Notes under the pieces: model-generated
Databases searched by the model: none
Told to the model about the DNA's origin: nothing
What the model saw: the letters and a program-made list of their open reading frames with translations, nothing else
Position numbers and translations under genes: made by a program
Shown: one piece after another, positions 16,644 to 30,390 of the stretch
Numbering within the stretch: position 1 is the first letter of the stretch
Layout of the letters: every line of letters starts with the position of its first letter
From: Hymenobacter sp. HSC-4F20
GTDB taxonomy: Bacteria > Bacteroidota > Bacteroidia > Cytophagales > Hymenobacteraceae
DNA length: 64,000 nt
Reading direction: 5' to 3'
NCBI RefSeq assembly: GCF_019599275.1
Contig: NZ_JAHZTD010000004.1
Span: 62,001 to 126,000, forward strand

Positions 16644-17630
16644 TTACCGCTGGGGCTGGGCCGGGGGCTCGGGTAGGTTGGAATCTGACACAATATACAA
16701 GGGCCGCTGCCGCACGTTGGCGGAAAGGCGGGCAATGTATTCGCCGATGATGCCCACGGCTATCAGCTGCACGCCCCCCAGAAACAGGATGCTTACCATC
16801 AGGGAAGGCCAGCCCGGCTCGTACTTCTCCGTTACGAAGCGGGAGTAGAGCGTGTAAAGCATCACTAAAAAGGCAATGCCCGATACGATAAAGCCGCTCA
16901 CGGTAGCCGCCTTCAGGGGCACGTCGGAAAAGGCCGTGATGCCATCGAGGGCCAGCTTGAGCATTTTGCGGTAGGTGTAGCCGGTAGCCCCGCCCGCCCG
17001 CTCGGCCCGGTCGTACTCCAGGTACGTCTGGCGGTAGCCAATCCAGGAAATCTGGCCCCGGATAAATTTGTTCTGTTCCGGCATGCGGCGCAGGGCTTCC
17101 ACCACCTTGCGGGAAATCACGCGGAAGTCGCCGGTATCCACGGGGATGGAAATGTGCGTAATACTGGCCAGAATGCGGTAGAAGAGCTTAGCCGTGAGCT
17201 TTTTGGCGGCGCTTTCGCCCTGGCGGGAGCGGCGTTTGGCGTATACTACCTCGTAGCCTTCCTGGAGCTTTTGCAACAGCTGCGGAATCAGCTCCGGCGG
17301 GTCCTGCAAATCGGCATCGATAATGCAGACAGCCTGGCCTTCGGCCCGGTCGAGGCCGGCCGTCACGGCAATCTGGTGCCCGAAGTTGCGGCTGAAATCC
17401 AGGTAGCGCACCCGCGGGTCGCGCAGGGCCAGGGTCTGAATCAGGGCCAGCGACTGGTCGCGGGAACCGTCATTGATAAAGATAAACTCGTAGCCACCCG
17501 GCAACTGCATGGGGTCCAGAACTCCGCGCAGGCGTTCGTAGAGCGCCGGAATGTTGGCTTCCTCGTTGTAAATCGGGATGATAACGGACAGGTCCACGGG
17601 GCGAACGGGTGGAAAAGCGGCCGGCTGCAT
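16644..17630 (-). CDS. Family 2 glycosyltransferase, polyprenyl-phosphate type, with C-terminal membrane anchor
   Basis: Encodes 328 aa. The GT-A domain starts 'LSVIIPIYNEEANIPALYER', with 'FINDGSRDQSLALI' and the metal-binding 'CIIDADLQDPPELI'. Two C-terminal transmembrane helices follow ('AATVSGFIVSGIAFLVMLYT', 'MVSILFLGGVQLIAVGIIGE'). This DPM1/GtrB-like build moves a sugar from a nucleotide donor to undecaprenyl phosphate on the cytoplasmic face, supplying GT-C enzymes that act outside. The start codon overlaps the stop of the methyltransferase gene by one base (TGATG), suggesting coupled translation. Confidence 0.9.
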   Translation of the reverse strand: MQPAAFPPVRPVDLSVIIPIYNEEANIPALYERLRGVLDPMQLPGGYEFIFINDGSRDQSLALIQTLALRDPRVRYLDFSRNFGHQIAVTAGLDRAEGQAVCIIDADLQDPPELIPQLLQKLQEGYEVVYAKRRSRQGESAAKKLTAKLFYRILASITHISIPVDTGDFRVISRKVVEALRRMPEQNKFIRGQISWIGYRQTYLEYDRAERAGGATGYTYRKMLKLALDGITAFSDVPLKAATVSGFIVSGIAFLVMLYTLYSRFVTEKYEPGWPSLMVSILFLGGVQLIAVGIIGEYIARLSANVRQRPLYIVSDSNLPEPPAQPQR

Positions 17631-18385
17631 CAGGCGGCTGGCTTACGGGCCAGGGCGAAAACGCTCACGCCCACTGGCAGGTTGATGTGGCGCAGCAAGC
17701 GGTTCTCGGCCTGCAGCAGCCAGATGAGGGAGCGGTTTAGGGGCTGGGGCAGGGCTGCCAGGTCGCCGGTGCCGGCCTCGTCGGCGGGCTTGCTGCCACT
17801 GGTTAAGCGCTGGGCCTGCCGAATCAGGTAGGTGGGGAAAAACAGGGCGAAGTTCCAGTACGACTGGCGCAGTACCTGCAGCTGGCTAGCTTGCAGAGCC
17901 TGTTTTAGGGTAGCGCCAGTGTAGCGGCGGAAGTGGCGGTTTACCACATCGTGCTGGCTCCAGAGCTGGGGATAGGCTGGTACGTACACCAGCAGCTGTC
18001 CGCCGGGGCGCAGCACCCGCCGCCACTCGCGCAGGGCCTGCTGCTCGTCCTCGATGTGCTCCAGCACGTCAGAGGCTACCACTAGGTCAAAAGAAGCATC
18101 CGGGAAGTCCAGCCGGGCCCCGTCCATCACCGATACGTTCGGAATCTGGCGCTGGTGAGCCAGGGCAATAGCCGTTTCGCTGATGTCGATGCCCGTCAGG
18201 TGGTGAAAGCCCGCTTGGCGTAGCTGCTGCTGCAAGGGGCCACCGGAACACCCAATTTCCAGAATAGCCGCAGTAGTGGGCAGGCGTAGCTGCTTGATCT
18301 GATCAAACACACTGTCGCGCCGGCCCCGAAACCACCAGTGATTTTCTTCTAATTGATGGTAGAGTGCTTCGTATTGAACTTGCAT
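17630..18385 (-). CDS. Class I SAM-dependent methyltransferase
   Basis: Encodes 251 aa. The Rossmann methyltransferase domain has motif I 'ILEIGCSGGPLQQQLRQAG', motif II around 'HLTGIDISETAIALAHQRQI', the acidic 'FDLVVASDVLEHIEDEQQAL' and 'LRPGGQLLVYVPAYPQLWSQ'. This methyltransferase_11/23 type often modifies small molecules, lipids or sugars. A C-terminal helical and hydrophobic stretch ('LIWLLQAENRLLRHINLP') resembles proteins encoded beside GT2 enzymes in glycan clusters. It is first gene of the methyltransferase-GT2-ALDH run. A near-consensus -7 motif (TACTTTCG, 18390-18397, - strand) lies only 4 bases upstream, so the transcript may be almost leaderless. Confidence 0.85.
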   Translation of the reverse strand: MQVQYEALYHQLEENHWWFRGRRDSVFDQIKQLRLPTTAAILEIGCSGGPLQQQLRQAGFHHLTGIDISETAIALAHQRQIPNVSVMDGARLDFPDASFDLVVASDVLEHIEDEQQALREWRRVLRPGGQLLVYVPAYPQLWSQHDVVNRHFRRYTGATLKQALQASQLQVLRQSYWNFALFFPTYLIRQAQRLTSGSKPADEAGTGDLAALPQPLNRSLIWLLQAENRLLRHINLPVGVSVFALARKPAA

Positions 18386-18474
18386 ACGGCGAAAGTACGG
18401 AATGAGAAAACACCATACCTAGTACTTGCGGCCCAGCTAAGCCAGAAGGAGAATAATTGGCTCCGAACACGGGG

Positions 18475-18504
18475 TTGCCGGAAGCAGTGAACCATGTACT
18501 TTTG
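18475..18504 (+). promoter_or_regulatory. Bacteroidetes-type promoter (TTG-N19-TACTTTTG)
   Basis: TTG at 18475-18477, a 19-base spacer, then TACTTTTG at 18497-18504, an exact match to the -7 consensus TAnnTTTG with the expected -33 spacing. It lies 39 bases before the GT-C-like gene start at 18544. Confidence 0.65.
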
Positions 18505-18543
18505 CGCCAACTGAGCCCGGAAGTCCGGCGCACTCGCCTACGT

Positions 18544-20103
18544 ATGCCATTTCTTTCGGTGCTAAGGGCTCGTCCCTTTCATATTGCAGCCTTATTGTTA
18601 TTTATTGGGGTAGGGCTGGCTTTCTACGTGCCCTTTCTGGGTACGCTGCCCGTAGGGCCCCACGCCTGGGCCCAAGCCGACCGGCTGGCGCTGGCCGTGA
18701 ACTTCTACGACTACGGCTTCAACTTTTTCAAACCCCGGACTTCGTCCTTGAATTCTATCGGCGGCATTACGGGGGTAGAGTTTCCGCTCCCGTCCTACCT
18801 GGCGGCCCTGTGCGGGCTGGTAGTTGGGCGCGAGAATATCAACGGCGCCTTCCGGGCTATTGATGCGGCCGTAGCCGTGGTCGGGTTTTACTACCTGTTC
18901 CGGCTGATTTACGAGCGCACGGGGCACTTTGTGGCGGCGCTGGTGCCGGGGGCGTTTCTGCTGTCCTCTCCGTTTTTTGCGTTTTATGCCGTTAGCTACC
19001 TACCCGACCCCGTTAGCCTGAGCCTGAGCTTTGTGGGCTACTACTACTGGCTGCGGTTTTTCGAGCAGCGCACTTTCCGCGACTTGCTGGTGGCCGTGGC
19101 CGTACTGACGCTGGCGGGCCTGATCAAAACTACTACCAGTCTGCACTTGGCGGCGCTGGTGGGCCTCACGCTGGGCTGGGAGTATTTGGCCGCTGAGCCC
19201 CTGCTTACAGTGCGGCAGCGGCGGCAGCTGCTGGGGGCTGTGTTGGCGGGGGTGGGGCTGATTGTGGCCTTTTTCGTGCACAACCAACACCTGAACGCCA
19301 CCTACCAGTCGGGGCAGTTTCTGGCCGAAGCCCGGCCCATCACCGATGACGACGTGCGCCAGCAGGTGTGGTTTTACATCCGCCGCGACTGGCTGGCTGA
19401 GTATGCCACCAACACTCAGTACCGCGTGCTGGCCGTGTGCGGGGCGCTGCTGCTGGTGTTTGCCTGGCCCAACCTGCGGCGCCACCTGCCCCTCACGCTG
19501 CTGCTGCTGGCGACGGCCGCCATCAGCTACCTGTTTTTTCAGCTGATGGGTGCCCAAATGGGCGTGCACGACTACTACTTTATCTGCTCGTTTATTCCGC
19601 CGGCGGTGCTGTTGCTGGTGTTGGCCCTGCTCAATATTGCCCGCTACACCGGCTGGGTGCGCTACGCTACCACGGCCGGGCTGGCCGGGCTGGCGGTGGT
19701 GTTCGTGGTCCAGGGCTACACCCGCCTGCAGCGCCGCATGAGCGACGAGTACCCACCCTTCAGCCCGTATGCCTACGAGTGGATGCGCGGCGGGGCCGAC
19801 TTACTGCGCCGTGCCGGCGTGCCGCCGCAGGCCCAAGTGCTTCTCTTTAACGACCCGGCCCCCAACCTCGGGCTGGTGTACTTTGACCGGCGCGGCCGAA
19901 ACTGGCAGTACGAGGTCGATAAGCTAACGCCCGATAATCTGCTGGATGAAATGGCCACCGACAGCCTGGAATACGTGCTCATGGCCCCGGCCGTGTACGA
20001 AAAGCTGGCGCCCCAGCAGGAGGCGCTGAACGCTGCCTTCGAACCCCTGGCCCTGCAGCCGGCTGTGGTACTGCGGCGTCGGGACATGCGGCGGACCTGG
20101 TAG
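18544..20103 (+). CDS. Multi-pass GT-C-like glycosyltransferase (GT39/ArnT-like)
   Basis: Encodes 519 aa with about ten predicted transmembrane segments (for example 'FHIAALLLFIGVGLAFYVPF', 'VLAVCGALLLVFAWPNL', 'TAGLAGLAVVFVVQGYTRL'). The first large loop contains 'GPHAWAQADRLALAVNFY', like the 'WRQAD' loop of GT-C enzymes, and 'IGGITGVEFPLPSYLAALCG'. A soluble tail of about 100 residues follows. Such enzymes take a polyprenyl-phosphate sugar and transfer it outside the inner membrane. The acceptor is unknown. The start at 18544 is preferred: the open frame begins at 18457, upstream of the predicted promoter. Confidence 0.75.
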   Translation: MPFLSVLRARPFHIAALLLFIGVGLAFYVPFLGTLPVGPHAWAQADRLALAVNFYDYGFNFFKPRTSSLNSIGGITGVEFPLPSYLAALCGLVVGRENINGAFRAIDAAVAVVGFYYLFRLIYERTGHFVAALVPGAFLLSSPFFAFYAVSYLPDPVSLSLSFVGYYYWLRFFEQRTFRDLLVAVAVLTLAGLIKTTTSLHLAALVGLTLGWEYLAAEPLLTVRQRRQLLGAVLAGVGLIVAFFVHNQHLNATYQSGQFLAEARPITDDDVRQQVWFYIRRDWLAEYATNTQYRVLAVCGALLLVFAWPNLRRHLPLTLLLLATAAISYLFFQLMGAQMGVHDYYFICSFIPPAVLLLVLALLNIARYTGWVRYATTAGLAGLAVVFVVQGYTRLQRRMSDEYPPFSPYAYEWMRGGADLLRRAGVPPQAQVLLFNDPAPNLGLVYFDRRGRNWQYEVDKLTPDNLLDEMATDSLEYVLMAPAVYEKLAPQQEALNAAFEPLALQPAVVLRRRDMRRTW

Positions 20104-20148: not shown

Positions 20149-20703
20149 ATGGTACGAATGATGCGCGGCGGAATGTGGGTAATGAGCAGTGCGCTAGCTG
20201 CCCTGAGTAGCTGCACCGGCGCGCCCGCCCGGCCAGAAGTGCGCGAGCGGGTAATGGTTAGCAGCAGTTTTGAGAATATTCTGGGCTTTGCTGAGCAGGT
20301 GCCCCCCTCGCTAACCACCGAAAAAGCGCACACCGGCCGCTACGCCGTGCGCGTCGATGCGCAAAATCAGTACTCGCTTACCTACCACGGCACCCTGGGG
20401 CAGCTGTGCACCACCAAGCCCCGCAAGTTCATCTTCAGCGCCTGGGTGTGGGTGCCCCGGCCCGAAGACGAAGCCACCCTCATTCTGGCCCTTACCTCGC
20501 CCGACGACCCGGAGCACCCCTTGCTGCACAAAAACGTGTACCTGACCGACCGTGGACCCTACGGCAAGTGGAAACAGGTGCGCCGCGAGATTGATGTACC
20601 CGGCACCGTGAACCGCAACACCCGCTTGGCCCTCTACCTCTGGAACGGCACGGCCCAGCAACCCGTGTACGCCGATGACTGGCAGCTGGCAGAGTTAAAA
20701 TAA
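20149..20703 (+). CDS. Lipoprotein of a four-member local family (copy A)
   Basis: Encodes 184 aa. A signal peptide ends in the lipobox 'LSSC' (about residue 22). The mature part is one beta-rich domain of about 150 residues with the family pattern: 'SSSFENILGF', 'LTTEKAHTGRYAVRVD', 'QYSLTYHGTLG', 'FSAWVWVPRPED', 'GKWKQVRREIDVPG' and 'LALYLWNGTAQQPVYADDW'. The order and spacing resemble carbohydrate-binding jelly rolls (CBM4/9/22-like), which is a fold inference. It follows the GT-C-like gene by 45 bases and is followed by copy B. This copy is the most divergent near its C-terminus (DDW instead of DDL). Confidence 0.75.
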   Translation: MVRMMRGGMWVMSSALAALSSCTGAPARPEVRERVMVSSSFENILGFAEQVPPSLTTEKAHTGRYAVRVDAQNQYSLTYHGTLGQLCTTKPRKFIFSAWVWVPRPEDEATLILALTSPDDPEHPLLHKNVYLTDRGPYGKWKQVRREIDVPGTVNRNTRLALYLWNGTAQQPVYADDWQLAELK

Positions 20704-20767
20704 GGGTAACGGAGGCCCGCGAAATACCATTACTTTTACATTCTGAACCCCTTAGCACTTCTTTCGC

Positions 20768-21310
20768 GTGATGAAAAAACTACCCTGGGCCCTGCTGCTG
20801 CTGAGCCTGGCCGGCTGTGGTGAAAAGACCCCGGCCAACAGTCCTGACACCCTGGTATCAAATGATTTTGAAAGCTTGGACGGGTGGCTGGGTGACCAAA
20901 ACACCGCTTCCGTAACGCGCGAGAAAGCGCACTCCGGGCGGTACTCGTTGAAGGTAGACGGTAGCACCGAGTATAGCCGCACGTACTCCAACCTGCTGGG
21001 TAAGATGCACGATACGCGCGTCAAGAAAATCAAAGTCAACGCCTGGGTGTTCGTGCCGAGCGCGCAGGCTGGTGCCAAGCTGGTAACGGTTATCAGCGAC
21101 ACGGCCCCCGATGCTAAGCCCGCCGTGTGGGACGGCCTCGACCTGGGCCCGGCCGTGAAAGGCCAGTACGGCAAGTGGATAGAAATTAACAACGAGCTGG
21201 CCGTGCCCGAAAATGTGTCGCCGACCAGCAAGTTTGTGATGTACCTGTGGCGCACCGGCGGCCCCCTGCCCGTATACCTCGACGACCTGAACGTGACGGC
21301 GGCCGAGTAA
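20768..21310 (+). CDS. Lipoprotein of a four-member local family (copy B)
   Basis: Encodes 180 aa. The signal 'LPWALLLLSLAGCGEK' has the lipobox LAGC at Cys 17. The family pattern is complete: 'SNDFESLDGWLGDQ', 'TREKAHSGRYSLKVDG', 'EYSRTYSNLLGK', 'VNAWVFVPSAQAG', 'GKWIEINNELAVPE' and 'KFVMYLWRTGG', ending 'PVYLDDLNVTAAE'. It is predicted to be a lipid-anchored single beta-sandwich exposed in the periplasm or at the surface. It lies 64 bases after copy A in the same direction, so probably on the same transcript. No catalytic residues are evident. Confidence 0.75.
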   Translation: MMKKLPWALLLLSLAGCGEKTPANSPDTLVSNDFESLDGWLGDQNTASVTREKAHSGRYSLKVDGSTEYSRTYSNLLGKMHDTRVKKIKVNAWVFVPSAQAGAKLVTVISDTAPDAKPAVWDGLDLGPAVKGQYGKWIEINNELAVPENVSPTSKFVMYLWRTGGPLPVYLDDLNVTAAE

Positions 21311-21338
21311 CTCAACTACTTGTTAGCCCTGGAATAAG

Positions 21339-21373
21339 AAAAGCGGCTGCTCCGGATAGGGGCAGCCGCTTTT
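21339..21373. terminator. Intrinsic terminator between convergent genes
   Basis: A 12-bp stem (21339-21350 with 21362-21373) with A and T tracts, between lipoprotein copy B on + and the 785-aa membrane protein on -. Confidence 0.8.
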
Positions 21374-21393
21374 GCTACATGATTTGACCTTGT

Positions 21394-23751
21394 TTAGCGG
21401 GCCAGCGGAAAGCCATCCAGCACAGGCTGCTGACGGGCATCCAGCCAGTACACGTGAGTAGTGCGGGGCCGAATCAGCAGGTCATCGACCACAATATCGT
21501 CGCCACCCATTTCCACCACAATGCGGTTGGCGCGGTTCTGCAGGCGGATGGGTAGGGTAAAGCGGACCCAGTCGCCGTGAATTTCCGTGGATTCTTTCAA
21601 AGAGCGCTCTACCCGTTCCACCTCTTGGCCGGTAGGGCTAAGCTGGCGGTAGCTGAGGTAGGGCATCCAGTCGGTGGTTTTGGCGTAGGCCCAGATGCTG
21701 AGCTCGTAGGAGGTAGTGTCGGCGGCGCCGGGTAGCACCCCGTCAAAAACCGGAAGCATACCCTTGTCGGCGTGGGCCGCCCCGGGGCGGGTAAAGCTGA
21801 CGCTGCCGGGCGCGGTAGCATCTTGGAAAGTGCGCCACACCACGCCCGGCCCGGCCACCGTGCGCCAGAGCTGCCCTTGGCGGAGCAACTCGTTTTGGTG
21901 CGCGGCAAACCAGGCCCGCTCCGCGGCCGGCCGGCTGGTGGCAAAGGCGCGGAGCGGCAGCTCATAGAGCTTTACCAGCGGCGTAGTAGTCAGCAAAACA
22001 GCCCCGCGCTGAAGCAGAGCCTTCTCCGCGGGCCGCAGCGAGTCGAGGCGGGAGGCCACTACTAGCAGAGGCTGGCGGGAGGGTAGGCGGCCGGGCCAGG
22101 ATTTGGGCGTGAGGTCGGAGGAAAACAGCTCCAGTAGCCGCAGCGTCTGCTCCGTGGACGTGCGCGACATCATGGTGGCGGCAATAGGCCGCTGCAGGCT
22201 CAGGGCCGCCCGGAAGCTTTCGGCCGTGCCTACCCCTCCGCCGCCCAGGTCAAACTTCTCCGACCCCAGCGAGTAGTAGGGCAGGGGCAGAATAGCCTGG
22301 TACTGATCGGGGTAGTGGCCGGCGCGGGCCAGGGTTTCGGCGTAGTTGCCGCCCGGCTGCAAAAAGGTATCGGCCACGCGGTTGGGCAGCAGCGGGGCAG
22401 TCAGCTCCTTGAGCTGGTACTTGGCTTCCAGCAACCACACGCCCGCCACAGCCACCAGCAGCAGCTGGCCCAGGCGTGCGGCCCGGCGCTGGCGCAGGAA
22501 GCGGTACAGCTGCCAGTACTGCACGGCGGCCAGCACGGCCGCCACGTAATAGAAAATCCAGGCGAAGCGGCCCAGGGAACGAAACTGCTTAAGCGCCGGC
22601 AGCCAGTCCAGCAGCCGGTCGAAGCCGGGCAGAATGAACGGCAGGCACATGGAAAATGCCAGCACCAGCCACGCGGCCCACACCGTAGGCTGCAACATCG
22701 CAGGCAGGGCCGGGCGCAGCACCCCGCGCCAGCGGCGGTGCACCAGGTGCCAGCCCACGCGCAGCAGCCACAGCCCTACCCCCAGCCCTACCACCAGCCC
22801 CACGTAGGCCTTGCCCTCCATAATGGGGTCGGAGGTGTGGAAGATAAACTTGAACACGGCGGCAAACGGCTCAATGGAAGGCCCAAACACGCCCGCCACG
22901 TTCGTGTGGTAGACAAAGAAGCCGTAGGGGTTGATGGGCCGGTCGGTGATGGGGTCGAGCAAGCCAATCCAAGTTTGGAACAGCACCGGCGGCAGCAGGC
23001 CCGCCGCCAGCAGCCAGGCCGGCTGGGCCCACCACTGGCCCTGGCGGGCTGCCAGGCGCTGCGCGGCCAGCACCAGAGCCGTAGCGGCCGGCAGCAGCAG
23101 GGCGTGCAGCAGGTAATACGGGTGTACCAGCGTGACCAGCAGGGTAGTTACCACGTAGAGCACCAGCCACTGCAGGCGGGCTGCCCGGGTTGCGGCCTCC
23201 AGCAGCCGCAGCTGCAGGTACCAGAGCAAGGGCACTACAAACGGCAGGGCCAGGGTGTAGTGCCCCGCGCCGATGCGGTGAAACTGCGGGGCCAGAAAGA
23301 CAATGGCCAGGGTAGCGGCGGCGCCAAACCAGCGCCCCACGCCCCCGCGCCGGAGCAGGGCGAATACCAGCGGCGTGGTGGGTACGGAGGAAAGCAGCAC
23401 CGTAAGGTTAAAGGCCGCTACTGCTTGGGAAAGAGTAATTCCAAAGGCGTTTTTCCAAGCTTTAAGCGCCCAGGCCAGCAGCGGAAATCCATCGGTAAAA
23501 GTCAGCAGCTCGCCGTAGGGGTAGTGCATGCCGGTAAACTGCACCCCGGCATCGGCCTGCAAATAGTAGAGCAGGGCAAAGTACGACTTGATACCGTCGC
23601 CGCCGGTGGTGAACAAATACTCGGAAGGGTGGAGCAGAATGGGTCCCACGCGGAACCACAGCACCAGTACGTGCAGCGCCACCAGCCCCAGCAGCCAATA
23701 CAGGTCGGAGGAAAAGGCGGAGCGGCGGGCCAGCGGCCGGGGCGAAATCAT
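21394..23751 (-). CDS. Large multi-pass membrane protein with C-terminal extracytoplasmic beta domain
   Basis: Encodes 785 aa. Residues about 20-440 hold ten or more transmembrane helices, with the loop 'FTTGGDGIKSYFALLYYLQA' after the first, a layout like GT-C enzymes or YfhO-like proteins. A soluble region follows. The last 130 residues ('SYELSIWAYAKTTDWMPY', 'GDWVRFTLPIRLQNRAN', 'IVVDDLLIRP') resemble the small lipoprotein family encoded nearby. Its start overlaps the stop of the upstream GT2 gene by four bases (ATGA), so the two are translationally coupled. That GT2 plausibly makes its lipid-linked sugar donor (inference). The true reaction is unknown. Confidence 0.8.
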   Translation of the reverse strand: MISPRPLARRSAFSSDLYWLLGLVALHVLVLWFRVGPILLHPSEYLFTTGGDGIKSYFALLYYLQADAGVQFTGMHYPYGELLTFTDGFPLLAWALKAWKNAFGITLSQAVAAFNLTVLLSSVPTTPLVFALLRRGGVGRWFGAAATLAIVFLAPQFHRIGAGHYTLALPFVVPLLWYLQLRLLEAATRAARLQWLVLYVVTTLLVTLVHPYYLLHALLLPAATALVLAAQRLAARQGQWWAQPAWLLAAGLLPPVLFQTWIGLLDPITDRPINPYGFFVYHTNVAGVFGPSIEPFAAVFKFIFHTSDPIMEGKAYVGLVVGLGVGLWLLRVGWHLVHRRWRGVLRPALPAMLQPTVWAAWLVLAFSMCLPFILPGFDRLLDWLPALKQFRSLGRFAWIFYYVAAVLAAVQYWQLYRFLRQRRAARLGQLLLVAVAGVWLLEAKYQLKELTAPLLPNRVADTFLQPGGNYAETLARAGHYPDQYQAILPLPYYSLGSEKFDLGGGGVGTAESFRAALSLQRPIAATMMSRTSTEQTLRLLELFSSDLTPKSWPGRLPSRQPLLVVASRLDSLRPAEKALLQRGAVLLTTTPLVKLYELPLRAFATSRPAAERAWFAAHQNELLRQGQLWRTVAGPGVVWRTFQDATAPGSVSFTRPGAAHADKGMLPVFDGVLPGAADTTSYELSIWAYAKTTDWMPYLSYRQLSPTGQEVERVERSLKESTEIHGDWVRFTLPIRLQNRANRIVVEMGGDDIVVDDLLIRPRTTHVYWLDARQQPVLDGFPLAR

Positions 23752-24731
23752 AGGGAAGCGTCAGAAGGAGAGAAAGGAGTACGAGGACGCGGGGCACCGG
23801 CGGGGGCCGGCAGTCCGGAGTCCGTTTCGCTGACCAGGTAGGGCGGGCGCTGCTTGGCCTGGATGAAAAGCTTGCCCAGGTATTCGCCCATAATGCCCAG
23901 CACGAGCAGCTGAATGCCACCAATGAACAGCACGCTGATCAGCACCGAGGCCCAGCCGGGTACCGCGTCATCAGTGAAAATCAGGATAAACAGCGCGTAG
24001 AGGGCGTAGAGAAACGCCAGCCCCGAAACGCCCACGCCGGCCAGGGTGGCAAAATGCAGGGGCCGCACGCTAAAGGACGTAATACCGTTGAGGGCCAGCT
24101 TTACCATTTTGCGCACCGTGTACTTGGTGGTGCCCCGGAAGCGGGCATCGGGGGTGTAGGCCACGCGCTTCTGCCGGAAGCCTGCCCAGTGCACGAAGCC
24201 CCGCAGAAACAAGTCTACATCGGGGCTGGAGCGCACCACGTCGGCCACGCGCCGGTCGATGAGGCGGTAGTCGGCCGTGCCCGGCTCAAAGTCGACGCTG
24301 GACAAGCCGTTCATTACCCGGTAAAAGGCGCTGGAGGTCTGGCGCTTAAGCCAGGGTAGGCGCTCGTCGTCCTGGCGCTGGGTGTACACAATATCGTAGC
24401 CGTCCAGCCAGTGGCCCAGCAACTCGGGTAGCAGGCGGGGGGGGTGCTGCAGGTCGGCATCGAGGGAAATAACACAGTCGCCGGTGGCGTAGTCGATACC
24501 GGCGCGCAGGGCGCTCTGGTGGCCGAAGTTGCGGGAGAGCAGCACGTAGTGAATTTCCGGGTCCTGGGCGCGCAGCTCGCGCAGCACGCGCTGGGTGCCG
24601 TCGCGGCTGCCGTCGTCCACGAAAATTAACTCCCGCTCGTAGCGTCCGGCCAGGTGCTCTTTCACGCGGGCGGCCACTTCTGGCAAGTTCTCCTCTTCAT
24701 TATAAGCCGGAATAACAACGGATATCTTCAT
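23748..24731 (-). CDS. Family 2 glycosyltransferase, polyprenyl-phosphate type
   Basis: Encodes 327 aa. GT-A motifs: 'ISVVIPAYNEEENLPEVAAR', 'IFVDDGSRDGTQRVLREL' and 'VISLDADLQHPPRLLPELLG'. Two transmembrane helices lie near the end ('FATLAGVGVSGLAFLYALYA', 'SVLISVLFIGGIQLLVLGIM'). It is a paralogue of the gene at 16644 and should likewise load a sugar onto a polyprenyl phosphate. The ATG at 24729-24731 is chosen because it starts 'MKISVVIPAYNEE'; the longer frame begins with unrelated Pro/Arg-rich sequence. It forms a coupled pair with the 785-aa membrane protein (ATGA overlap). Confidence 0.9.
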   Translation of the reverse strand: MKISVVIPAYNEEENLPEVAARVKEHLAGRYERELIFVDDGSRDGTQRVLRELRAQDPEIHYVLLSRNFGHQSALRAGIDYATGDCVISLDADLQHPPRLLPELLGHWLDGYDIVYTQRQDDERLPWLKRQTSSAFYRVMNGLSSVDFEPGTADYRLIDRRVADVVRSSPDVDLFLRGFVHWAGFRQKRVAYTPDARFRGTTKYTVRKMVKLALNGITSFSVRPLHFATLAGVGVSGLAFLYALYALFILIFTDDAVPGWASVLISVLFIGGIQLLVLGIMGEYLGKLFIQAKQRPPYLVSETDSGLPAPAGAPRPRTPFSPSDASL

Positions 24732-24874
24732 GCAAGGGGAGGGGCCCGGTGGGCGGCTCAGTGGAGTAACGGGCGGAAGGTCTCCGCCCCGGGGCCGCAG
24801 CCCCGCCAAAGTTGGCCAAAACTACGGTATTCCAAAAAAGGACGATGGTCAATGGGCGGGTCGCGCGAAATGGA

Positions 24875-24904
24875 TTGGGCAGCTGCGGGTAGCTTCTATC
24901 TTTG
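24875..24904 (+). promoter_or_regulatory. Bacteroidetes-type promoter (TTG-N19-TATCTTTG)
   Basis: TTG at 24875-24877 and TATCTTTG at 24897-24904, separated by exactly 19 bases, 33 bases before the start of lipoprotein copy C. It matches the consensus fully. Confidence 0.65.
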
Positions 24905-24937
24905 TCCGGGCTTCTTTCCGAAGCTCACCGACTTCTT

Positions 24938-25483
24938 ATGCTGCCACTTTCTGTTTTCCGGCCGGCCGGTGCCGCGCTGCTGTTAGGGCTCACCGCCTGC
25001 TCTACTGCTCCCGCCACCGAAGAAACGGGCCACCGCGTAACCTACAACGACTTCGAGGCCGTGGATGGCTGGGGCCCCGCCGTTCCGTCGCTGACTACCG
25101 AGAAAGCGCACTCGGGCCGGTTTGCCGTGAAGGTCGACAACGCCGTGGAGTACAGTTTGGGGTACGCCAACCTGCTGGGGAAGGCCAGCACTGCCCGCAT
25201 GCGCAAGCTCACGGTACGGGGCTGGGCCCGCCGGGAGGGCCCCGACGGCTCGGCCACGCTGGTTGTGCAGGTCACGGACCCCGCCCAGGGCAACCAGCAG
25301 CTGTACTGGGAGCCACTGCACTTCGCCGAGCAGGTGAAAACGCCGGGGCAGTGGGAGCAGATTAGCAAGGAATACACCCTGCCCGCCGGCCTGCAAGCCA
25401 GCCACGAGCTAAAGGTGTACCTCTGGCGCAACAGCGCCGCCCAACCTGCCTACCTCGACGACCTAACCATTACGGCTGAGTAA
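24938..25483 (+). CDS. Lipoprotein of a four-member local family (copy C)
   Basis: Encodes 181 aa. The signal ends in the lipobox 'LTAC' (about residue 22). The family pattern is: 'YNDFEAVDGWGPA', 'LTTEKAHSGRFAVKVDN', 'EYSLGYANLLGK', 'TVRGWARREGPDGSATLVVQ', 'GQWEQISKEYTLPAG' and 'LKVYLWRNSAAQ', ending 'AYLDDLTITAE'. It has its own promoter and stands alone on +, between the divergent GT2/membrane-protein pair and the convergent SDR gene. The start at 24938 is used because the longer frame (24902) would begin at the promoter element. Confidence 0.75.
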   Translation: MLPLSVFRPAGAALLLGLTACSTAPATEETGHRVTYNDFEAVDGWGPAVPSLTTEKAHSGRFAVKVDNAVEYSLGYANLLGKASTARMRKLTVRGWARREGPDGSATLVVQVTDPAQGNQQLYWEPLHFAEQVKTPGQWEQISKEYTLPAGLQASHELKVYLWRNSAAQPAYLDDLTITAE

Positions 25484-25502
25484 AGCGGGCTACGCGGCTG
25501 CG

Positions 25503-26288
25503 CTACAGGCTGCTGGTGCGCCCCCCATCCACGGGCACGTTGATGCCCGTGATGTAGGCAGCGGCTTCCGAGGCCAGAAAGGCCACGGCCGCCGCTACCT
25601 CCCGGGCCTGCCCGAAGCGGCCGGCCGGAATGCCGCGCAGCATGGCCGCCTCCACTTCCTCGGTGGTCTGCCCGGTTTCTTCTACTTTCTTGGCAATGAG
25701 GGAGGTATGGCGCTGCGTGACGGTGGCACCGGGCAGCACGTTATTGACGGTGATGCCGTCGGTGGCCAGCTCGTTGGCCAGGGTTTTGGCCCAGTTGCCC
25801 ACGGCCCCCCGAATGGTGTTCGACACGCCCAGCCCCGGCAGCGGCTGCTTTACGGAGGTGCTGATAATGTTGATAATGCGCCCCCACCGGCGCTGGCGCA
25901 TGCCCGGCACCAAGGCTTGGGCCAGCAGGTGGTTGCATACCACGTGCTGCTCAAACGCGGCCCGAAATGCTTCCACCGGCGCCTCCACTAGGGGGCCGCC
26001 AGCCGGGCCGCCCGTGTTGTTGACCAGAATATCGAAGCCAGATGCATTCTGCTCCAGATACTGCTGCACCCGTTGGGCCAGGGTGGCAGGGGAGCTGAAA
26101 TCGGCCACAATGAAATCGTGCGGCTGTTGGGCGGGGGTAGGCAGGGCGGCGGCTACCGCGCGCAGGGCATCTTCGTTGCGGGCTACCAGCGTGAGGGTGG
26201 CCCCGCGCCGGGCCAGCTCCTCGGCCACGGCCCGGCCAATTCCTTGGGTGCTGCCGCCCACCAGGGCGCGACGAGAAAGTAAGTCCAT
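25503..26288 (-). CDS. Atypical short-chain dehydrogenase/reductase
   Basis: Encodes 261 aa. The SDR Rossmann fold is clear: 'ALVGGSTQGIGRAVAEELAR' (TGxxxGIG variant), 'FIVADFSSPATL', 'VNNTGGPAGGP' (NNAG variant) and the C-terminal 'YITGINVPVDGGRTSSL'. The catalytic YxxxK is not present: the aligned positions read S156-x-x-x-R160 in 'GVSNTIRGAVGNWAKTLA'. This SN-x-x-R variant occurs in some bacterial SDRs and may mean an altered mechanism or substrate. It is divergent from the 3-hydroxyanthranilate dioxygenase gene, so a role near the kynurenine pathway is possible but unproven. Confidence 0.85.
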   Translation of the reverse strand: MDLLSRRALVGGSTQGIGRAVAEELARRGATLTLVARNEDALRAVAAALPTPAQQPHDFIVADFSSPATLAQRVQQYLEQNASGFDILVNNTGGPAGGPLVEAPVEAFRAAFEQHVVCNHLLAQALVPGMRQRRWGRIINIISTSVKQPLPGLGVSNTIRGAVGNWAKTLANELATDGITVNNVLPGATVTQRHTSLIAKKVEETGQTTEEVEAAMLRGIPAGRFGQAREVAAAVAFLASEAAAYITGINVPVDGGRTSSL

Positions 26289-26435
26289 CGGTGAATAAGG
26301 TAAGGGAAGAAGGGAAAGCCGTGAGCTACCGGCCAAATATGCAGGTAAAGTCGGTGGCCCCGATACGCGGGAATGTCGTTATTTGCCGTGAGGCACCCGT
26401 TGCCTACCCATGTCTTCACCCCAGCGCCTCGCTTT

Positions 26436-26951
26436 ATGATTCGGCCTTTCAACTTTCAGCAGTGGATTGAGGAGCACCGCCACCTGCTCAAGCCCCCCGT
26501 TGGTAACCAGCAGGTATTCAAGGATAACAAGGATTTCATTGTGATGGTAGTGGGCGGCCCCAACGCCCGCAAAGACTACCACGTGGACGAGGGCGAGGAG
26601 CTGTTCCTGCAGCTAGAGGGCGACATCGTGGTAAAGGTTATCGAAGACGGTAAGCCGGTCGATATTGAGATTAAAGCCGGCAGCATGTTCCTGCTCCCGG
26701 CCGGGGTGCCCCACTCGCCGCGCCGCCCGGCCGGCTCGGTGGGGCTGGTGCTGGAGCGCTACCGCACCCCCGGCGAGCTGGACGGTTTTCAGTGGTACTG
26801 CGAGAACTGCGGCCACAAGCTTCACGAGGAGTTTGCCGAAATCACCGACATCGTGGCTCAGCTGCCCCCCATCATGAACCGGTTCTGGGCCTCTGATGCG
26901 CTACGCACCTGCTCTGTGTGCGGCACCTACATGGAAGCCCCGCCCCTGTAG
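26436..26951 (+). CDS. nbaC: 3-hydroxyanthranilate 3,4-dioxygenase
   Basis: Encodes 171 aa, a cupin that opens the ring of 3-hydroxyanthranilate to 2-amino-3-carboxymuconate semialdehyde (ACMS). Iron ligands are His49 and Glu55 ('DYHVDEGEELF') and His93 ('PHSPRRP'). Substrate-binding Arg45, Arg97 and Glu107 are in place. The bacterial-type C-terminal rubredoxin-like metal site is complete: Cys122/Cys125 ('YCENCGH') and Cys159/Cys162 ('CSVCGTY'). The start at 26436 ('MIRPFNFQQW') matches the family; the longer frame adds 21 unrelated residues. It is first of the HAO-4HB-ACMSD run, with its stop directly against a repeat. Confidence 0.95.
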   Translation: MIRPFNFQQWIEEHRHLLKPPVGNQQVFKDNKDFIVMVVGGPNARKDYHVDEGEELFLQLEGDIVVKVIEDGKPVDIEIKAGSMFLLPAGVPHSPRRPAGSVGLVLERYRTPGELDGFQWYCENCGHKLHEEFAEITDIVAQLPPIMNRFWASDALRTCSVCGTYMEAPPL

Positions 26952-26952
26952 T

Positions 26953-26980
26953 GAAGAATGAGGAATGAAGAGTGAGGAAT
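26953..26980. repeat. Degenerate AATGAGGA repeat, left copy
   Basis: Tandem AATGARGA-type units begin two bases after the dioxygenase stop. The stretch 26957-26980 matches the reverse complement of 27431-27461 with about two differences over 22 bases. The two copies therefore form an inverted pair around the four-helix-bundle gene. Confidence 0.8.
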
Positions 26981-26982
26981 AG

Positions 26983-26992
26983 GCTTGCCCAG
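26983..26992. repeat. 10-bp direct repeat flanking the four-helix-bundle gene (left)
   Basis: GCTTGCCCAG at 26983-26992 recurs at 27394-27403, immediately outside the small gene on each side and inside the outer inverted repeats. It could be a target duplication, but 10 bases can recur by chance. Confidence 0.5.
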
Positions 26993-27005
26993 ATGCCGAC
27001 CACCT

Positions 27006-27389
27006 ATGGACGCTGAAAATACTGTTGCCGTCAAGTCGTTTGCCTTTGCCGTTAGAATCGTGCGATTGTGCCGGCATTTGCGGACCGACCAGCACGAGTA
27101 TGTTTTGGCTAAACAACTGCTGCGCTCCGGTACCTCCATTGGAGCTAATGTGGAAGAAGCTGTTGGGGCCATTTCCAAAGCTGATTTCTCTCATAAAATC
27201 AGTATTGCCTACAAAGAAGCCCGCGAAACAAACTATTGGTTGAAGCTGCTGGCAGCCACCGAAACCCTGACCCCCGTGGCATTCACTAGCATTCAAACGG
27301 ACTGCGAAGAGCTCTGCCGTATCCTACGCGCCATTCTGAACACCACCCGCATCAAAAAGGAGAAAGACCAGGATACCGAACCATCCTGA
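27006..27389 (+). CDS. Four-helix-bundle protein (23S rRNA intervening-sequence family)
   Basis: Encodes 127 aa from the ATG at 27006; an ATG at 26985 is the alternative. Family hallmarks are 'SFAFAVRIVRLCRHLRTDQH', 'VLAKQLLRSGTSIGANVEEA' and 'KISIAYKEARETNYWLKLL'. The fold is a four-helix bundle known from ORFs in 23S rRNA intervening sequences and the Avd accessory protein of diversity-generating retroelements. No reverse transcriptase is nearby. The gene breaks into the kynurenine operon between dioxygenase and decarboxylase and is bordered by repeats, suggesting a small insertion. It has somewhat lower GC than its neighbours. The cellular role is unknown. Confidence 0.85.
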   Translation: MDAENTVAVKSFAFAVRIVRLCRHLRTDQHEYVLAKQLLRSGTSIGANVEEAVGAISKADFSHKISIAYKEARETNYWLKLLAATETLTPVAFTSIQTDCEELCRILRAILNTTRIKKEKDQDTEPS

Positions 27390-27393
27390 GCCC

Positions 27394-27403
27394 GCTTGCC
27401 CAG
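27394..27403. repeat. 10-bp direct repeat flanking the four-helix-bundle gene (right)
   Basis: Second copy of GCTTGCCCAG, five bases after the small gene's stop. Confidence 0.5.
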
Positions 27404-27414
27404 CACCACTAGCT

Positions 27415-28479
27415 ATGAATCCGCAGCAGAATTCTTCTCTCCTCATTCCTCATTCCTCATTAACAATAGACATTCACACCCACATTCTGCCCGAGCGGTG
27501 GCCCGACCTGCGGGAGCGGTACGGGTACGGCGGCTTTATCCGGCTGGAACACCACCGGCCCTGCTGCGCCCGCATGATGCAGGACGACCGGTTTTTTCGC
27601 GAAGTTCAGGATAACTGCTGGGACCCCGAGGTACGCCTGCGCGAGTACGACCAGCTAGGTACCCAGGTGCAGGTGCTCAGCACGGTGCCCGTGATGTTCA
27701 GCTACTGGGCCCGCCCCCTGGATACGCTGGATTTAAGCCAGCTGCTGAACGACCACCTGGCCGACGTGGTGCGGCGCTACCCTACCCGCTTCGTGGGCTT
27801 GGGCACGCTACCCCTGCAAGCCCCCGACCTGGCCGTGCAGGAGCTGGAGCGCTGCATGAAACTGGGACTGGCCGGCGTGCAAATCGGCTCCCACGTCAAC
27901 GACTGGAACCTGGATGCGCCGGAGCTGTTCCCCGTGTTTCAGGCCGCCGAGGAGCTGGGCGCCTGCGTGTTCATTCATCCCTGGGACATGATGGGCCAGC
28001 AGCAGATGCCCAAGTACTGGCTGCCCTGGCTGGTGGGCATGCCCGCCGAAAGCACCCGCGCCCTGTGCTCCCTCATTTTTGGGGGCGTACTGGAGCGGCT
28101 GCCGCGCCTGCGGGTGGCCGTGGCCCACGGCGGCGGCACGTTTGCCACTACCATCGGGCGCATTGGCCACGGCTTCGAGGTGCGGCCCGATCTGTGTGCC
28201 GTCGATAACCCGGTGCACCCCAGCCACTACCTCGGCCGCTTCTGGGTGGATTCCCTGGTTCACGACCCGCGCCTGCTCGACTACCTGGCCCAAACCATCG
28301 GACCCGATAAAATCACGCTCGGCACCGACTACCCCTTCCCCCTGGGCGAGGCCGTGCCCGGCGAGCTGATTCGTTCCCTACCGTACCCCGACGACGTGAA
28401 AGCCCGGATGCTGGGCCAGAATGCCCTGGACTGGTTGGGGCTGGAAGCCAGCCGGTTCGGGCCGGGCCTCTCCTTGTAA
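27415..28479 (+). CDS. nbaD: 2-amino-3-carboxymuconate-6-semialdehyde decarboxylase (ACMSD)
   Basis: Encodes 354 aa, an amidohydrolase-fold zinc decarboxylase that turns ACMS into 2-aminomuconate semialdehyde, diverting carbon from quinolinate. Zinc ligands are His21/His23 ('DIHTHILP'), His188 ('VFIHPWD') and Asp305 ('GTDYPFP'), with His238 ('VAHGGG'). Family members normally begin a few residues before the HxH. Here residues about 6-16 ('NSSLLIPHSSL') are encoded by the right-hand copy of the flanking repeat, and no alternative ATG lies closer to the HxH. The insertion therefore seems to have supplied a new start region. Confidence 0.92.
   Translation: MNPQQNSSLLIPHSSLTIDIHTHILPERWPDLRERYGYGGFIRLEHHRPCCARMMQDDRFFREVQDNCWDPEVRLREYDQLGTQVQVLSTVPVMFSYWARPLDTLDLSQLLNDHLADVVRRYPTRFVGLGTLPLQAPDLAVQELERCMKLGLAGVQIGSHVNDWNLDAPELFPVFQAAEELGACVFIHPWDMMGQQQMPKYWLPWLVGMPAESTRALCSLIFGGVLERLPRLRVAVAHGGGTFATTIGRIGHGFEVRPDLCAVDNPVHPSHYLGRFWVDSLVHDPRLLDYLAQTIGPDKITLGTDYPFPLGEAVPGELIRSLPYPDDVKARMLGQNALDWLGLEASRFGPGLSL
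27431..27461. repeat. Degenerate AATGAGGA repeat, right copy, inside the ACMSD coding start
   Basis: The reverse complement of tandem AATGAGGA units; pairs with the left copy at 26953-26980. It is translated in frame as part of the ACMSD N-terminus. Confidence 0.8.
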
Positions 28480-28505
28480 TATTCTCTGCTTGGTACTACC
28501 TCTAT

Positions 28506-29048
28506 ATGCCATTACGTTCTTTTCAGGGGCTGCTCTGCTTGCTGCTGGGGCTGCTGCCGGGCTGCCAGCCACCCGCCAACGAAGCCTGCGTGCTTATTCA
28601 ATCTGATTTCGAACAGTTTGAAGGCTGGTTTGATCCTCTGCCGGGCTTCCTGAACGCCGAGCAGGCTCACTCGGGCCGCTACTCCTACCGCCTGGGCAAC
28701 GGCGCCGAGTACGGCAGCGTCTACCGCACCACCCTGGCTAACACCCGGTGCGAGGGACTACCCCGCCGCCTGCGCCTGAGTGCCTGGGTGTACCTGCCCA
28801 GCGGCCGGATTCGCAAAACCAAGCTGGTCGTGCAGGTTGACTGCCACGGCCGGCGTCCCAACATCTGGCGGGCCCTGGAAGTGTCGGAAGTGGTGCGGCG
28901 CTACCAGCAGTGGGAGCGAGTGCAGAAAAACATTGCCCTGCCCGCTGACCTCGACCCCTCCGATGAGCTGCAGTTTTACGTGTGGCACGCCGAAGCCAAC
29001 GGAGAGCCCACCTGGGTTGACGACCTGCTGGTGGAAGGGTGGCAGTAG
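28506..29048 (+). CDS. Lipoprotein of a four-member local family (copy D)
   Basis: Encodes 180 aa. The signal ends in 'LLPGC' (lipobox Cys about 20). The family pattern is: 'IQSDFEQFEGWFDP', 'NAEQAHSGRYSYRLGN', 'EYGSVYRTTLAN', 'LSAWVYLPSGRIRKTKLVVQ', 'QQWERVQKNIALPAD' and 'LQFYVWHAEANGEP', ending 'TWVDDLLVEGWQ'. It starts 26 bases after ACMSD and is followed 40 bases later by the PIG-V-like gene, so it may be co-transcribed with both, linking the two gene sets of this region. No enzyme motif is visible. Confidence 0.75.
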   Translation: MPLRSFQGLLCLLLGLLPGCQPPANEACVLIQSDFEQFEGWFDPLPGFLNAEQAHSGRYSYRLGNGAEYGSVYRTTLANTRCEGLPRRLRLSAWVYLPSGRIRKTKLVVQVDCHGRRPNIWRALEVSEVVRRYQQWERVQKNIALPADLDPSDELQFYVWHAEANGEPTWVDDLLVEGWQ

Positions 29049-29088: not shown

Positions 29089-30390
29089 GTGGCCGAAACT
29101 AGTTTGCCCCCCGGAGGCCTTACCCGCTCGCAAAGCGTCCTGCTCACGGCCCTGCACGTGCTGCTGCTCACGGCGCTGGGCTCTGCCCTCTACAACTTTG
29201 GCATCATCCGCTACCTGCCTTCTGCCGCTACCCTCGACCGCTGGGACGTGTACTGGTACGAGCAGATTGCCCGGGAAGGCTACTCCTACTCCACTACCAG
29301 CACCAGCAACGTAGCCTTCTTCCCCCTGTTTCCGTACTTCTGGCGCCTCAGCGGGCTTGACCGGCTGGGCATCGGCCTGGTTAACGCCGGGCTCTTTCTG
29401 GCCGCGTTTACCTGGCTGACTCACCAGCTGCAGGTACCCGCCCGGCTTAGGCTGCTGCTGGCCTCCACGCCCTCCCTGCTGTTCATGCTCGTGCCCTACA
29501 CCGAGGCCCTGTTCTTCGTGTTTGCCACCCTGCTGGTGCTAGGGCTGCGGCAGCAGCGGCTGGGCTGGTGGTTTTTGGGTTTGCTGGGCTGCGGGCTGAC
29601 TCGCTCGGCCAGCACCATGTTCACCCCGGCCCTGCTCTTTATGGTGCTGCTCTGGGCCGCCCAGCCCGGCCAGGCCCGCACGGCCTTGCGCTGGGGCGCG
29701 GTGGGGCTGCTGGCCCTCGGGCTGTCGGTGGGGGTGGTGGCTACCGTGCAGTGGCAGCAGGTAGGCGAGCCGTTTGCCTTTGCCCTGGCGCAGCGCTTCT
29801 GGGGCCACTTTCTACAGATGCCCGTCTTCCCGCTCACCGACCCCTCCGGCATCAACGTGCTCTGGCTCGATGCCCTGGCCCTGTGGCTGGGCGTGGCGGC
29901 GGTGGGCGTGTGCTGCGGACTGGCCTGGCGCTGGCTGCAGCAGGTGCGCGGCGGTGCCGTGGCAGCGGCGCTGCCCCCGGAGGTGGTGTTTGCTCTGGGC
30001 TACTGCGTAAGTGTGTTCCTGTTCATTCTGCTTTACCAGGCCGGCAGCGTCTGGAACATCGGGCGCTACATTTTTACTACGCCGTTTTTTGTGGTGCTGG
30101 TGGCCTATTTGAGTTCCCGGCCGGCCTGGCCCTGGCGGCGCTACCTGCTGCTAGCAGCCGCCTCTATGCTGCTCTGGCAGGCATTTGGGGCGTACACCCT
30201 CGACTTCGATACCTACACTACTGCGCAGGCCCTCTGGTACTTTGGCCTCGTGACGGCCTACTTGCTGGCCTACCTGGCGTGGCGGCAGCTGCGCTGGCAG
30301 GCTGAAGTAACGATGCTGCTCTACGTCTTCAACATGGTGATGCTGTTCCACCTGCTAGAAGGGTTTCTCCAGTTCTACGTGGTGCAGTAG
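29089..30390 (+). CDS. PIG-V-like GT-C mannosyltransferase family membrane protein
   Basis: Encodes 433 aa, starting with GTG at 29089. About eleven hydrophobic segments are predicted. The first large loop reads 'LDRWDVYWYEQIAREGYSY' then 'SNVAFFPLFPYFWRLSGLD', matching the PIG-V/GT76-like pattern (WDxxWYxxIAxxGY ... AFFPLxP) with the acidic GT-C loop. Eukaryotic PIG-V adds the second mannose of GPI anchors; bacterial relatives transfer mannose or other sugars from polyprenyl donors to unknown acceptors. A role in glycan assembly with the neighbouring lipoproteins and GT2 enzymes is inference. Confidence 0.8.
   Translation: MAETSLPPGGLTRSQSVLLTALHVLLLTALGSALYNFGIIRYLPSAATLDRWDVYWYEQIAREGYSYSTTSTSNVAFFPLFPYFWRLSGLDRLGIGLVNAGLFLAAFTWLTHQLQVPARLRLLLASTPSLLFMLVPYTEALFFVFATLLVLGLRQQRLGWWFLGLLGCGLTRSASTMFTPALLFMVLLWAAQPGQARTALRWGAVGLLALGLSVGVVATVQWQQVGEPFAFALAQRFWGHFLQMPVFPLTDPSGINVLWLDALALWLGVAAVGVCCGLAWRWLQQVRGGAVAAALPPEVVFALGYCVSVFLFILLYQAGSVWNIGRYIFTTPFFVVLVAYLSSRPAWPWRRYLLLAAASMLLWQAFGAYTLDFDTYTTAQALWYFGLVTAYLLAYLAWRQLRWQAEVTMLLYVFNMVMLFHLLEGFLQFYVVQ

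Follow-up and report, generated by a model that had tools for sequence, protein, structure and literature searches.

We analysed a 64,000-nucleotide stretch of Hymenobacter sp. HSC-4F20 (RefSeq assembly GCF_019599275.1, contig NZ_JAHZTD010000004.1, positions 62,001 to 126,000 of the forward strand; hereafter the window, with coordinates counted from its first letter), which carries four homologous lipoproteins of about 180 aa each, LP1 to LP4, among genes for glycosyltransferases, polytopic membrane proteins and kynurenine metabolism. Three of the polytopic proteins, GTC548, GTC433 and GTC785, are GT-C-like; GT-C enzymes use sugars from lipid-linked donors at the outer face of the membrane. 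We propose, with a probability of roughly 0.55, that LP1-4 are detached, lipid-anchored glycan-recognition subunits of the carbohydrate-binding module (CBM) type that work in trans with GT-C enzymes. All four open reading frames (ORFs) are present in the window:

20149..20703, plus strand: LP1, lipoprotein with a CBM-type jelly roll, 184 aa, without a Pfam match of its own; the first of two lipoproteins directly behind GTC548 (gap 45 bp)
20768..21310, plus strand: LP2, second lipoprotein of the tandem, 180 aa, after a 64 bp gap behind LP1
24938..25483, plus strand: LP3, lipoprotein, 181 aa from the ATG at 24938, with signal and lipobox
28506..29048, plus strand: LP4, lipoprotein, 180 aa, 40 bp upstream of GTC433

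A longer form of the LP3 frame (24902-25483, 193 aa) begins at a TTG, and the ATG at 24938 is the best start. The four proteins align over their full length with 24 invariant columns, LP2-4 being 27-33% identical to LP1, which bears out the initial annotation of this DNA in describing four related lipoproteins with a shared domain. Invariant positions include the lipobox Cys, F41 E42, E58, A60 H61, G63 R64, Y75, Y79, W99, W141, P151, Y163, W165 and D176 D177. The motif strings given in that annotation reflect a real pattern but are slightly idealised: LP1 reads GF for GW and DDW for DDL, YLWR varies as Y[LV]W[RNH], and EKAHSGRYS as E[KQ]AH[ST]GR[YF][AS]. Within its own genome, a profile built from the four rows matches LP1-4 alone (E 5e-79 or better; next candidate E 0.24), and its matches in further genomes of the genus reach E 1e-62; the likeness is therefore not due to chance.

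Relatives were detected with the four-row profile in 95 of 101 genomes of the same genus. A family-level draw of 100 genomes gave 37 matches, made up of 30 of the 33 same-genus genomes, six genomes of a second genus (g5) and one marginal match (8e-4) in a third genus. Across the class, a wider LP profile of 16 rows (A2) matched 102 of 295 genomes at E<=1e-5, some of which may represent other CBM_4_9-type domains; the eight genomes assigned to the same order gave no match, and with at most 11 candidates scored per genome such absences are soft.

The shared domain is related to known CBM families. Pfam CBM_4_9 (PF02018; curated cut-off 25.9 bits) is matched by LP3 above the cut-off (32.9 bits), by LP2 at the cut-off (25.9) and by LP4 below it (12.1), with no match in LP1, as well as by 10 of the 16 A2 members at E<=0.01; the LP sequence profile matches the CBM22 of a xylanase (4xup) at 8e-14. 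An AlphaFold2 model of LP3, with a mean predicted local distance difference test score (pLDDT) of 83.2, 108 of 181 residues at 90 or above and ten-residue blocks at 84-96 from residue 51 onward, predicts a beta jelly roll with short helical turns and not a substrate-binding-protein fold. When this model was searched with Foldseek, rows 1-3 were CBM22 (E about 1e-6, TM about 0.5), followed by a toxin jelly roll, with CBM16 from rank 11, and the CBM22 and CBM16 matches ranged over E about 1e-6 to 1e-5 and TM about 0.5-0.6. VIA-align scored a porphyran-binding CBM at Z 13.3 and CBM16 chains at 12.4-12.8 (12.8 for 2zew), and jelly rolls with other jobs also reached Z 11-12.3; matches to toxin-domain, meprin and cyclase jelly rolls in the fold lists were taken as shared fold alone. 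Membership of LP1-4 in the CBM_4_9/CBM22/CBM16 jelly-roll fold group, as predicted, is well supported, in agreement with the carbohydrate-binding jelly-roll likeness noted in the initial annotation, and we infer that the four proteins bind sugar. That annotation had named a clean mapping to a characterised Pfam family of unrelated function as a point that would count against it: the domain does so in part, to CBM_4_9, a family that stands for a binding fold and not for an unrelated function.

The genes that stand around the four lipoproteins in the window are:

16644..17630, minus strand: GT2a, second GT2 glycosyltransferase, of the same type as GT2b (Pfam Glycos_transf_2, 4e-34)
17630..18385, minus strand: methyltransferase (Pfam Methyltransf_11, 5e-25)
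18457..20103, plus strand: GTC548, polytopic PMT_2-type glycosyltransferase (PMT_2, 2e-8; exact start uncertain)
21394..23751, minus strand: GTC785, putative GT-C-like polytopic protein whose C-terminus extends into a long soluble tail
23748..24809, minus strand: GT2b, GtrB-type polyprenyl-phosphate glycosyltransferase (PDB 5EKP, sll0501, 2e-78)
29089..30390, plus strand: GTC433, partner of LP4; a GT-C-like polytopic protein in which a WD motif is conserved

GTC548, which scores 35 bits against a PMT_2 cut-off of 26.1, lacks the LP domain, and LP1 and LP2 come next behind it on the same strand; a PDB search with its profile returned nothing at E<=0.1. LP3 lies head to head with GT2b, behind which GTC785 is located, and LP4 begins 26 bp behind an ACMSD-like gene. 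Judging from its sequence, GT2b is probably a donor maker that produces a polyprenyl-phosphate sugar, with an NCBIfam PgfS match below cut-off, as for GT2a (1e-85). A GtrA-type flippase (PF04138) was searched for in the genome and not found, and we therefore make no claim to a full Gtr system of three components.

Pairing between LPs and polytopic genes was analysed in 64 loci from the genus and g5, consisting of 60 stretches of 20 kb hand-picked from the genus-level and family-level match lists, L036, L037, L039 and the window; L035, L038 and L040 were left out of the counts as duplicates of L082, L059 and L058, and unlabelled ORFs shorter than 170 aa were ignored as probable shadow ORFs. Standalone LP genes are present in 62 of these loci and number 129 in total, with a lipobox in 102 by a strict pattern that misses some plain ones. 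A same-strand polytopic gene directly adjoins 83 of the 129, compared with a mean of 41.4 +/- 4.9 and a maximum of 57 when genes were shuffled within each locus, and a mean of 39.8 and a maximum of 61 when strands were kept in the shuffle. Unbroken same-strand blocks shared with a polytopic gene include 105 of the 129.

We additionally found that distances among LPs correlate with those among their partners when kynureninase distances are controlled, both for GTC433 (partial r 0.47, n 12, p 0.0025) and for the partner family c13 (partial r 0.68, n 10, p 0.0015), the other three of five such tests having too few loci for a result (n 3, 1 and 1); the loci share ancestry, which tells against our proposal in that these p-values overstate the case, and the figures describe strength and not independent trials.

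One group considered for comparison was that of the SusE/SusF-type surface glycan-binding lipoproteins, whose hallmark is a place beside SusC/SusD in a utilisation locus; the neighbours identified around LPs are mostly glycosyltransferases and kynurenine genes. The methyltransferase cluster has 36 members in 35 loci. Also beside LP genes in several loci is a gene of cluster c30 (7 members in 7 loci; L073:11483-12895), in which the one member scanned matches Glyco_hydro_16 at 5e-15 and which might trim the glycan concerned. Near glycosyltransferase genes in four loci lies cluster c33 (L037:5271-6728), a protein of 485 aa with no Pfam match.

A tree was built from 25 fused domains and 125 of the 129 LPs, those whose domain match was short being excluded; it places LP1-4 in four different positions, each with relatives from other genomes. 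The four are therefore not a recent local expansion, so that the initial annotation, which had described an expanded family rather than chance, was right in dismissing chance only. In the LP1 clade (support 99), 9 of 9 members have a GTC548-family gene directly upstream, and in the LP4 clade 13 of 13 have a GTC433-family partner, with these nine LPs behind GTC548-type genes and 13 with GTC433-type partners each forming a group of their own. The LP2 clade (9 rows) has seven GTC548-family and two c13 partners, the LP3 clade (9 members) has three with a c13-type partner and six with none, and c25 partners are scattered over the tree. Counting fused domains as one label and leaving out the 22 LPs without a partner, partner labels change 26 times on the tree versus 83 times when shuffled. 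LP lineages thus track the type of the neighbouring polytopic gene, with gaps, and the two have evolved in parallel.

The strongest evidence for a link to GT-C enzymes is the fusion of the LP domain to the enzymes themselves. GTC548 is related by BLAST to a 684-aa protein of the same genus (L104; 30% identity, E 4e-40, L104 residues 40-519) and to a 676-aa protein from another family (L160; 24% identity, E 6e-29, L160 residues 10-468), and the C-termini of both match the LP profile (E 2e-8 and 9e-16, respectively). PMT_2 is matched by the fused proteins L153 (3e-13) and L160 (2e-11), and not by L104. A class-wide search with GTC548, using 527 model positions that exclude the LP part and five query rows of which two are fused, showed that in 18 of 30 loci inspected the enzyme carries the LP domain as a C-terminal fusion, a figure that includes two weak cases (E 4e-3 to 5e-3 for 300,000 sequences) and is lessened as evidence by its inclusion of the query row L160 (= L193). 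Three loci encode the domain in an ORF of its own no more than 1.5 kb away (the window, another genome of the genus and one marginal case at 2e-3), and nine show none. Fused and separate states also coexist within a second polytopic family, c3, of whose 49 members 24 are fused (about 630 aa), 22 are unfused (about 435 aa) and three fall in neither bin; each unfused member is 36-44% identical to a fused one over most of its length.

Tail lengths are in keeping with such an exchange. Taking the C-tail as the residues behind the last predicted membrane helix, and leaving out the first and last gene of each locus, unfused polytopic genes have a median tail of 25 aa when a same-strand LP adjoins them (72 genes) versus 155.5 aa when none does (138 genes). 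Over 13 families, fused members, genes outside any cluster and three families with no more than 3 members being excluded, tail length and LP pairing are correlated at rho -0.76 (p 0.002).

In the window, the end of the GTC785 tail (...DDLLIRP...) resembles the LP domain by eye, and residues about 660-765 look like a diverged copy of it; the profile comparison is weak (hhalign probability 17.5%, E 0.0014), and we claim the likeness as no more than that. The corresponding probability is 0.8% or less for the C-termini of nine other unfused clusters, and a value of 82% for the GTC548 C-terminus was not counted, as it was contaminated by the fused row L104. An AlphaFold2 model of GTC785 from a four-row alignment was unusable (pLDDT 47.7).

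Beyond the genus group, we also analysed 35 stretches from other Bacteroidia, hand-picked from the class-wide matches and comprising 26 with short LP-type ORFs (L126-L151), eight with fused proteins (L153-L160) and one with both (L152); several share one genus and are not independent. Among 28 distant standalone LPs, 15 have a polytopic gene (at least 400 aa and at least 6 predicted helices, on either strand) within two genes, one of these being a 1159-aa protein that need not be GT-C, and among 18 distant long proteins with the domain, nine are polytopic with the domain at the C-terminus. There are thus at least two contexts for the LP domain, and a GT-C link accounts for only some of them. 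In L126, L127, L133, L138, L143 and L152 (also L135 and L137), the domain occurs twice near the N-terminus of a non-polytopic protein of 584-793 aa, with no Pfam match in the two scanned (L126 and L137); a protein of 642-729 aa comes next in every case, and a standalone LP copy lies upstream in six loci. In five stretches from one genus (L139, L140, L142, L150 and L151), standalone LPs have genes for an aldehyde dehydrogenase and for a small membrane protein close by, and the stretch around the LP shows no glycosyltransferase match.

The kynurenine genes that the initial annotation had placed beside the lipoproteins are common neighbours within the genus group, at least one of HAAO, ACMSD and KYNU being present in 55 of the 62 loci with an LP, yet 0 of the 35 distant loci has a match to HAAO, ACMSD, KYNU or KMO at 1e-10. 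Their presence looks incidental and reflects inherited gene order, and a functional role for them was not supported. In the window, HAAO and kynureninase pass their NCBIfam cut-offs; the ACMSD-like gene is without an NCBIfam match and the NCBIfam matches of the KMO-like gene are all below cut-off, both names being tentative. Between HAAO and the ACMSD-like gene lies a four-helix-bundle protein (26985-27389; TIGR02436).

In the mechanism we propose, a GtrB-type GT2 would charge polyprenyl phosphate with sugar, a GT-C whose active site faces the periplasm would transfer the polyprenyl-linked sugar to an acceptor glycan, and the membrane-tethered LP beside the enzyme would hold the acceptor or the growing glycan, filling the job of the C-terminal CBM domains of those GT-Cs in which such a domain is present. 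GTC548 would have LP1 and LP2 as its subunits and GTC433 would have LP4; LP3 may serve the divergent GT2b-GTC785 pair. A physical complex with the enzyme, the identity of the substrate and the membrane that carries the anchor are likewise suppositions of this proposal. More tentatively, at somewhat below even odds, Bacteroidota could have a modular GT-C system with glycan recognition placed in small lipid-anchored CBMs: several GT-C-like families would each have a cognate CBM-lipoprotein lineage of their own, with a domain that is repeatedly fused and split, and acceptor specificity could be changed by an exchange of lipoproteins. As far as we are aware, these would then be the first lipoprotein subunits of GT-Cs known as a family with a true CBM fold.

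A number of observations weigh against this proposal. Within the genus group, 46 of the 129 LPs have no directly adjoining same-strand polytopic gene and 24 share no same-strand block with one, including LP3, which has no same-strand GT-C-like partner in the window; the GT-C association described in the initial annotation holds in the counts, lineages and fusions, with a neighbourhood conserved in part only. Neither GTC433 nor GTC785 has a match in the Pfam scan, so that the label GT-C-like rests for both on topology and conserved motifs, GTC433 being presumably PIG-V/GPI18-like by its motif. In the class-wide search, GTC548 matches 114 of 295 genomes, of which the 30 inspected loci are a part, and many lower-ranked matches are frames of about 480-560 aa that are probably not fused. 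The wider GTC433 superfamily shows no fixed tie to the LP: class-wide, 22 of 30 loci are without an LP domain in the surrounding 1.5 kb, and of the eight with one, six are query rows, leaving 2 of 24. Furthermore, 19 of the 24 fused c3 genes still adjoin an LP, GTC548 itself, with its tail of 129 aa, has an LP neighbour in 13 of 16 cases, counter to a simple complementarity of tails, and half of the distant long proteins that contain the domain (9 of 18) are non-polytopic.

Other points on that side of the scale favour a reading in which the LPs are free-standing glycan-binding lipoproteins of the envelope or surface (outer membrane) that bind or retain the polysaccharide made by their neighbours and are not enzyme subunits, which we consider unlikely, although it is the best placed of the alternatives. 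At +2 behind the lipobox Cys, 74 of 102 LPs carry S or G and 2 carry D, and under the E. coli +2 rule, which may not hold here, S or G at this position predicts the outer membrane; 15 of the 102 have at least two acidic residues at +2 to +6, which in some could be surface-export signals. Large polytopic genes are absent within two genes of 13 of the 28 distant standalone LPs, and genes of c30, a cluster that includes a GH16 member, stand near some copies. Other genes of the same loci are likewise often beside a same-strand polytopic gene (methyltransferase 18/37, GT2b 15/34, HAAO 24/55, KYNU 13/38, ACMSD 12/37 and GT2a 25/73, the further counts being SDR 6/48, ALDH 3/30 and AlkB-like 0/30); as the loci are crowded with polytopic genes, 83 of 129 amounts to a modest excess. 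Retention of a polysaccharide, however, would need no separate LP lineage for each partner type, and the partner-specific lineages, the complementarity of tails and the fusion of the domain to GTC548-type and c3 proteins all point to the enzyme itself.

It is improbable that the domain serves folding or assembly, stabilising a GT-C or its dimer without binding sugar, as could be argued from the many jelly rolls with non-sugar roles (meprin, cyclases, toxin domains) in the fold lists and from the conserved core (EKAHSG, DD), which is typical of a structural part of the fold and not of a ligand site. Against it, the CBMs of GT-Cs are described as binding the acceptor in EmbC and GT136 (PMC3044687, PMC11127046). 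The LPs also match true CBMs best, in sequence as well as by fold score. The suggestion in the initial annotation that the lipoproteins themselves receive the glycan, as protein substrates, fared worst and is very improbable: they do adjoin glycosyltransferases, and protein glycosylation is common in Bacteroidota, but the Bacteroidetes O-glycosylation motif D[ST][AILMTV] is not enriched, with 39 sites (in 32 of 102 mature LPs) versus a mean of 57.1 in 200 shuffles (range 39-88), and the domain is fused to enzymes in relatives.

Our proposal, of lipid-anchored CBM-type subunits working in trans with GT-C enzymes, would bear on a poorly understood step, namely acceptor recognition by GT-Cs, in which the role of CBMs is unsettled, being important in EmbC and dispensable in GT136 as tested. 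A separate CBM gene for several GT-C-like types could be deleted, swapped or purified with the enzyme untouched, and the proposal supplies a function hypothesis both for a lipoprotein family that 95 of 101 same-genus genomes contain and for the fused forms related to it elsewhere in the Bacteroidia.

The closest known systems carry the CBM within the enzyme. The GT136 ribofuranosyltransferase ORF12 of Citrobacter youngae is described as having a C-terminal, beta-rich CBM (residues 503-652) that binds the acceptor O antigen in isolation (PMC11127046). According to the same account, the enzyme works without its CBM, which counts against our proposal to the extent that the module is dispensable under the conditions tested (PMC11127046). 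By that description, GT136 shares with the fused relatives found here a GT-C enzyme, a polyprenyl-phosphate donor (presumed for those relatives) and a C-terminal CBM-type domain (about residues 465-705 in the relatives, as a comparison of layout), and differs from the window in that its CBM is part of the enzyme rather than a separate lipoprotein, and its donor maker is a phosphoribosyl synthase rather than a GtrB-type GT2. The EmbC arabinosyltransferase, as described, has a C-terminal lectin-like CBM whose tryptophans matter for acceptor binding and activity (PMC3044687), and so resembles the fused relatives as a GT-C with a CBM; it differs in being mycobacterial, and its CBM is fused. A covalent CBM of the EmbC and GT136 kind is thus absent from the window, where the ORFs are separate, and present in some relatives of GTC548 and in some members of c3.

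Lipoproteins accompanying GT-Cs have likewise been described in mycobacteria, where LpqZ and FecB co-precipitate with AftA and AftB, and where the authors suggest that they serve a CBM-like role for AftA, which is without CBMs (PMC12802301). As portrayed there, these are proteins of the substrate-binding kind with a proven interaction, whereas the present case offers a predicted CBM jelly roll and genomic fusions. The CBM22 and CBM16 modules of xylanases and endoglucanases (4xup, 2zew) have the jelly-roll fold in common with the LPs but are fused to hydrolases and act in degradation, whereas the LPs accompany enzymes of synthesis. Literature searches limited to open-licence papers listed none that, judged by title or abstract, deals with CBM lipoproteins paired with GT-Cs in Bacteroidota. 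As far as these published descriptions go, a lipoprotein in place of a CBM is already in print for mycobacteria, and what appears to be new is its counterpart in Bacteroidota, with a CBM fold and natural fusions.

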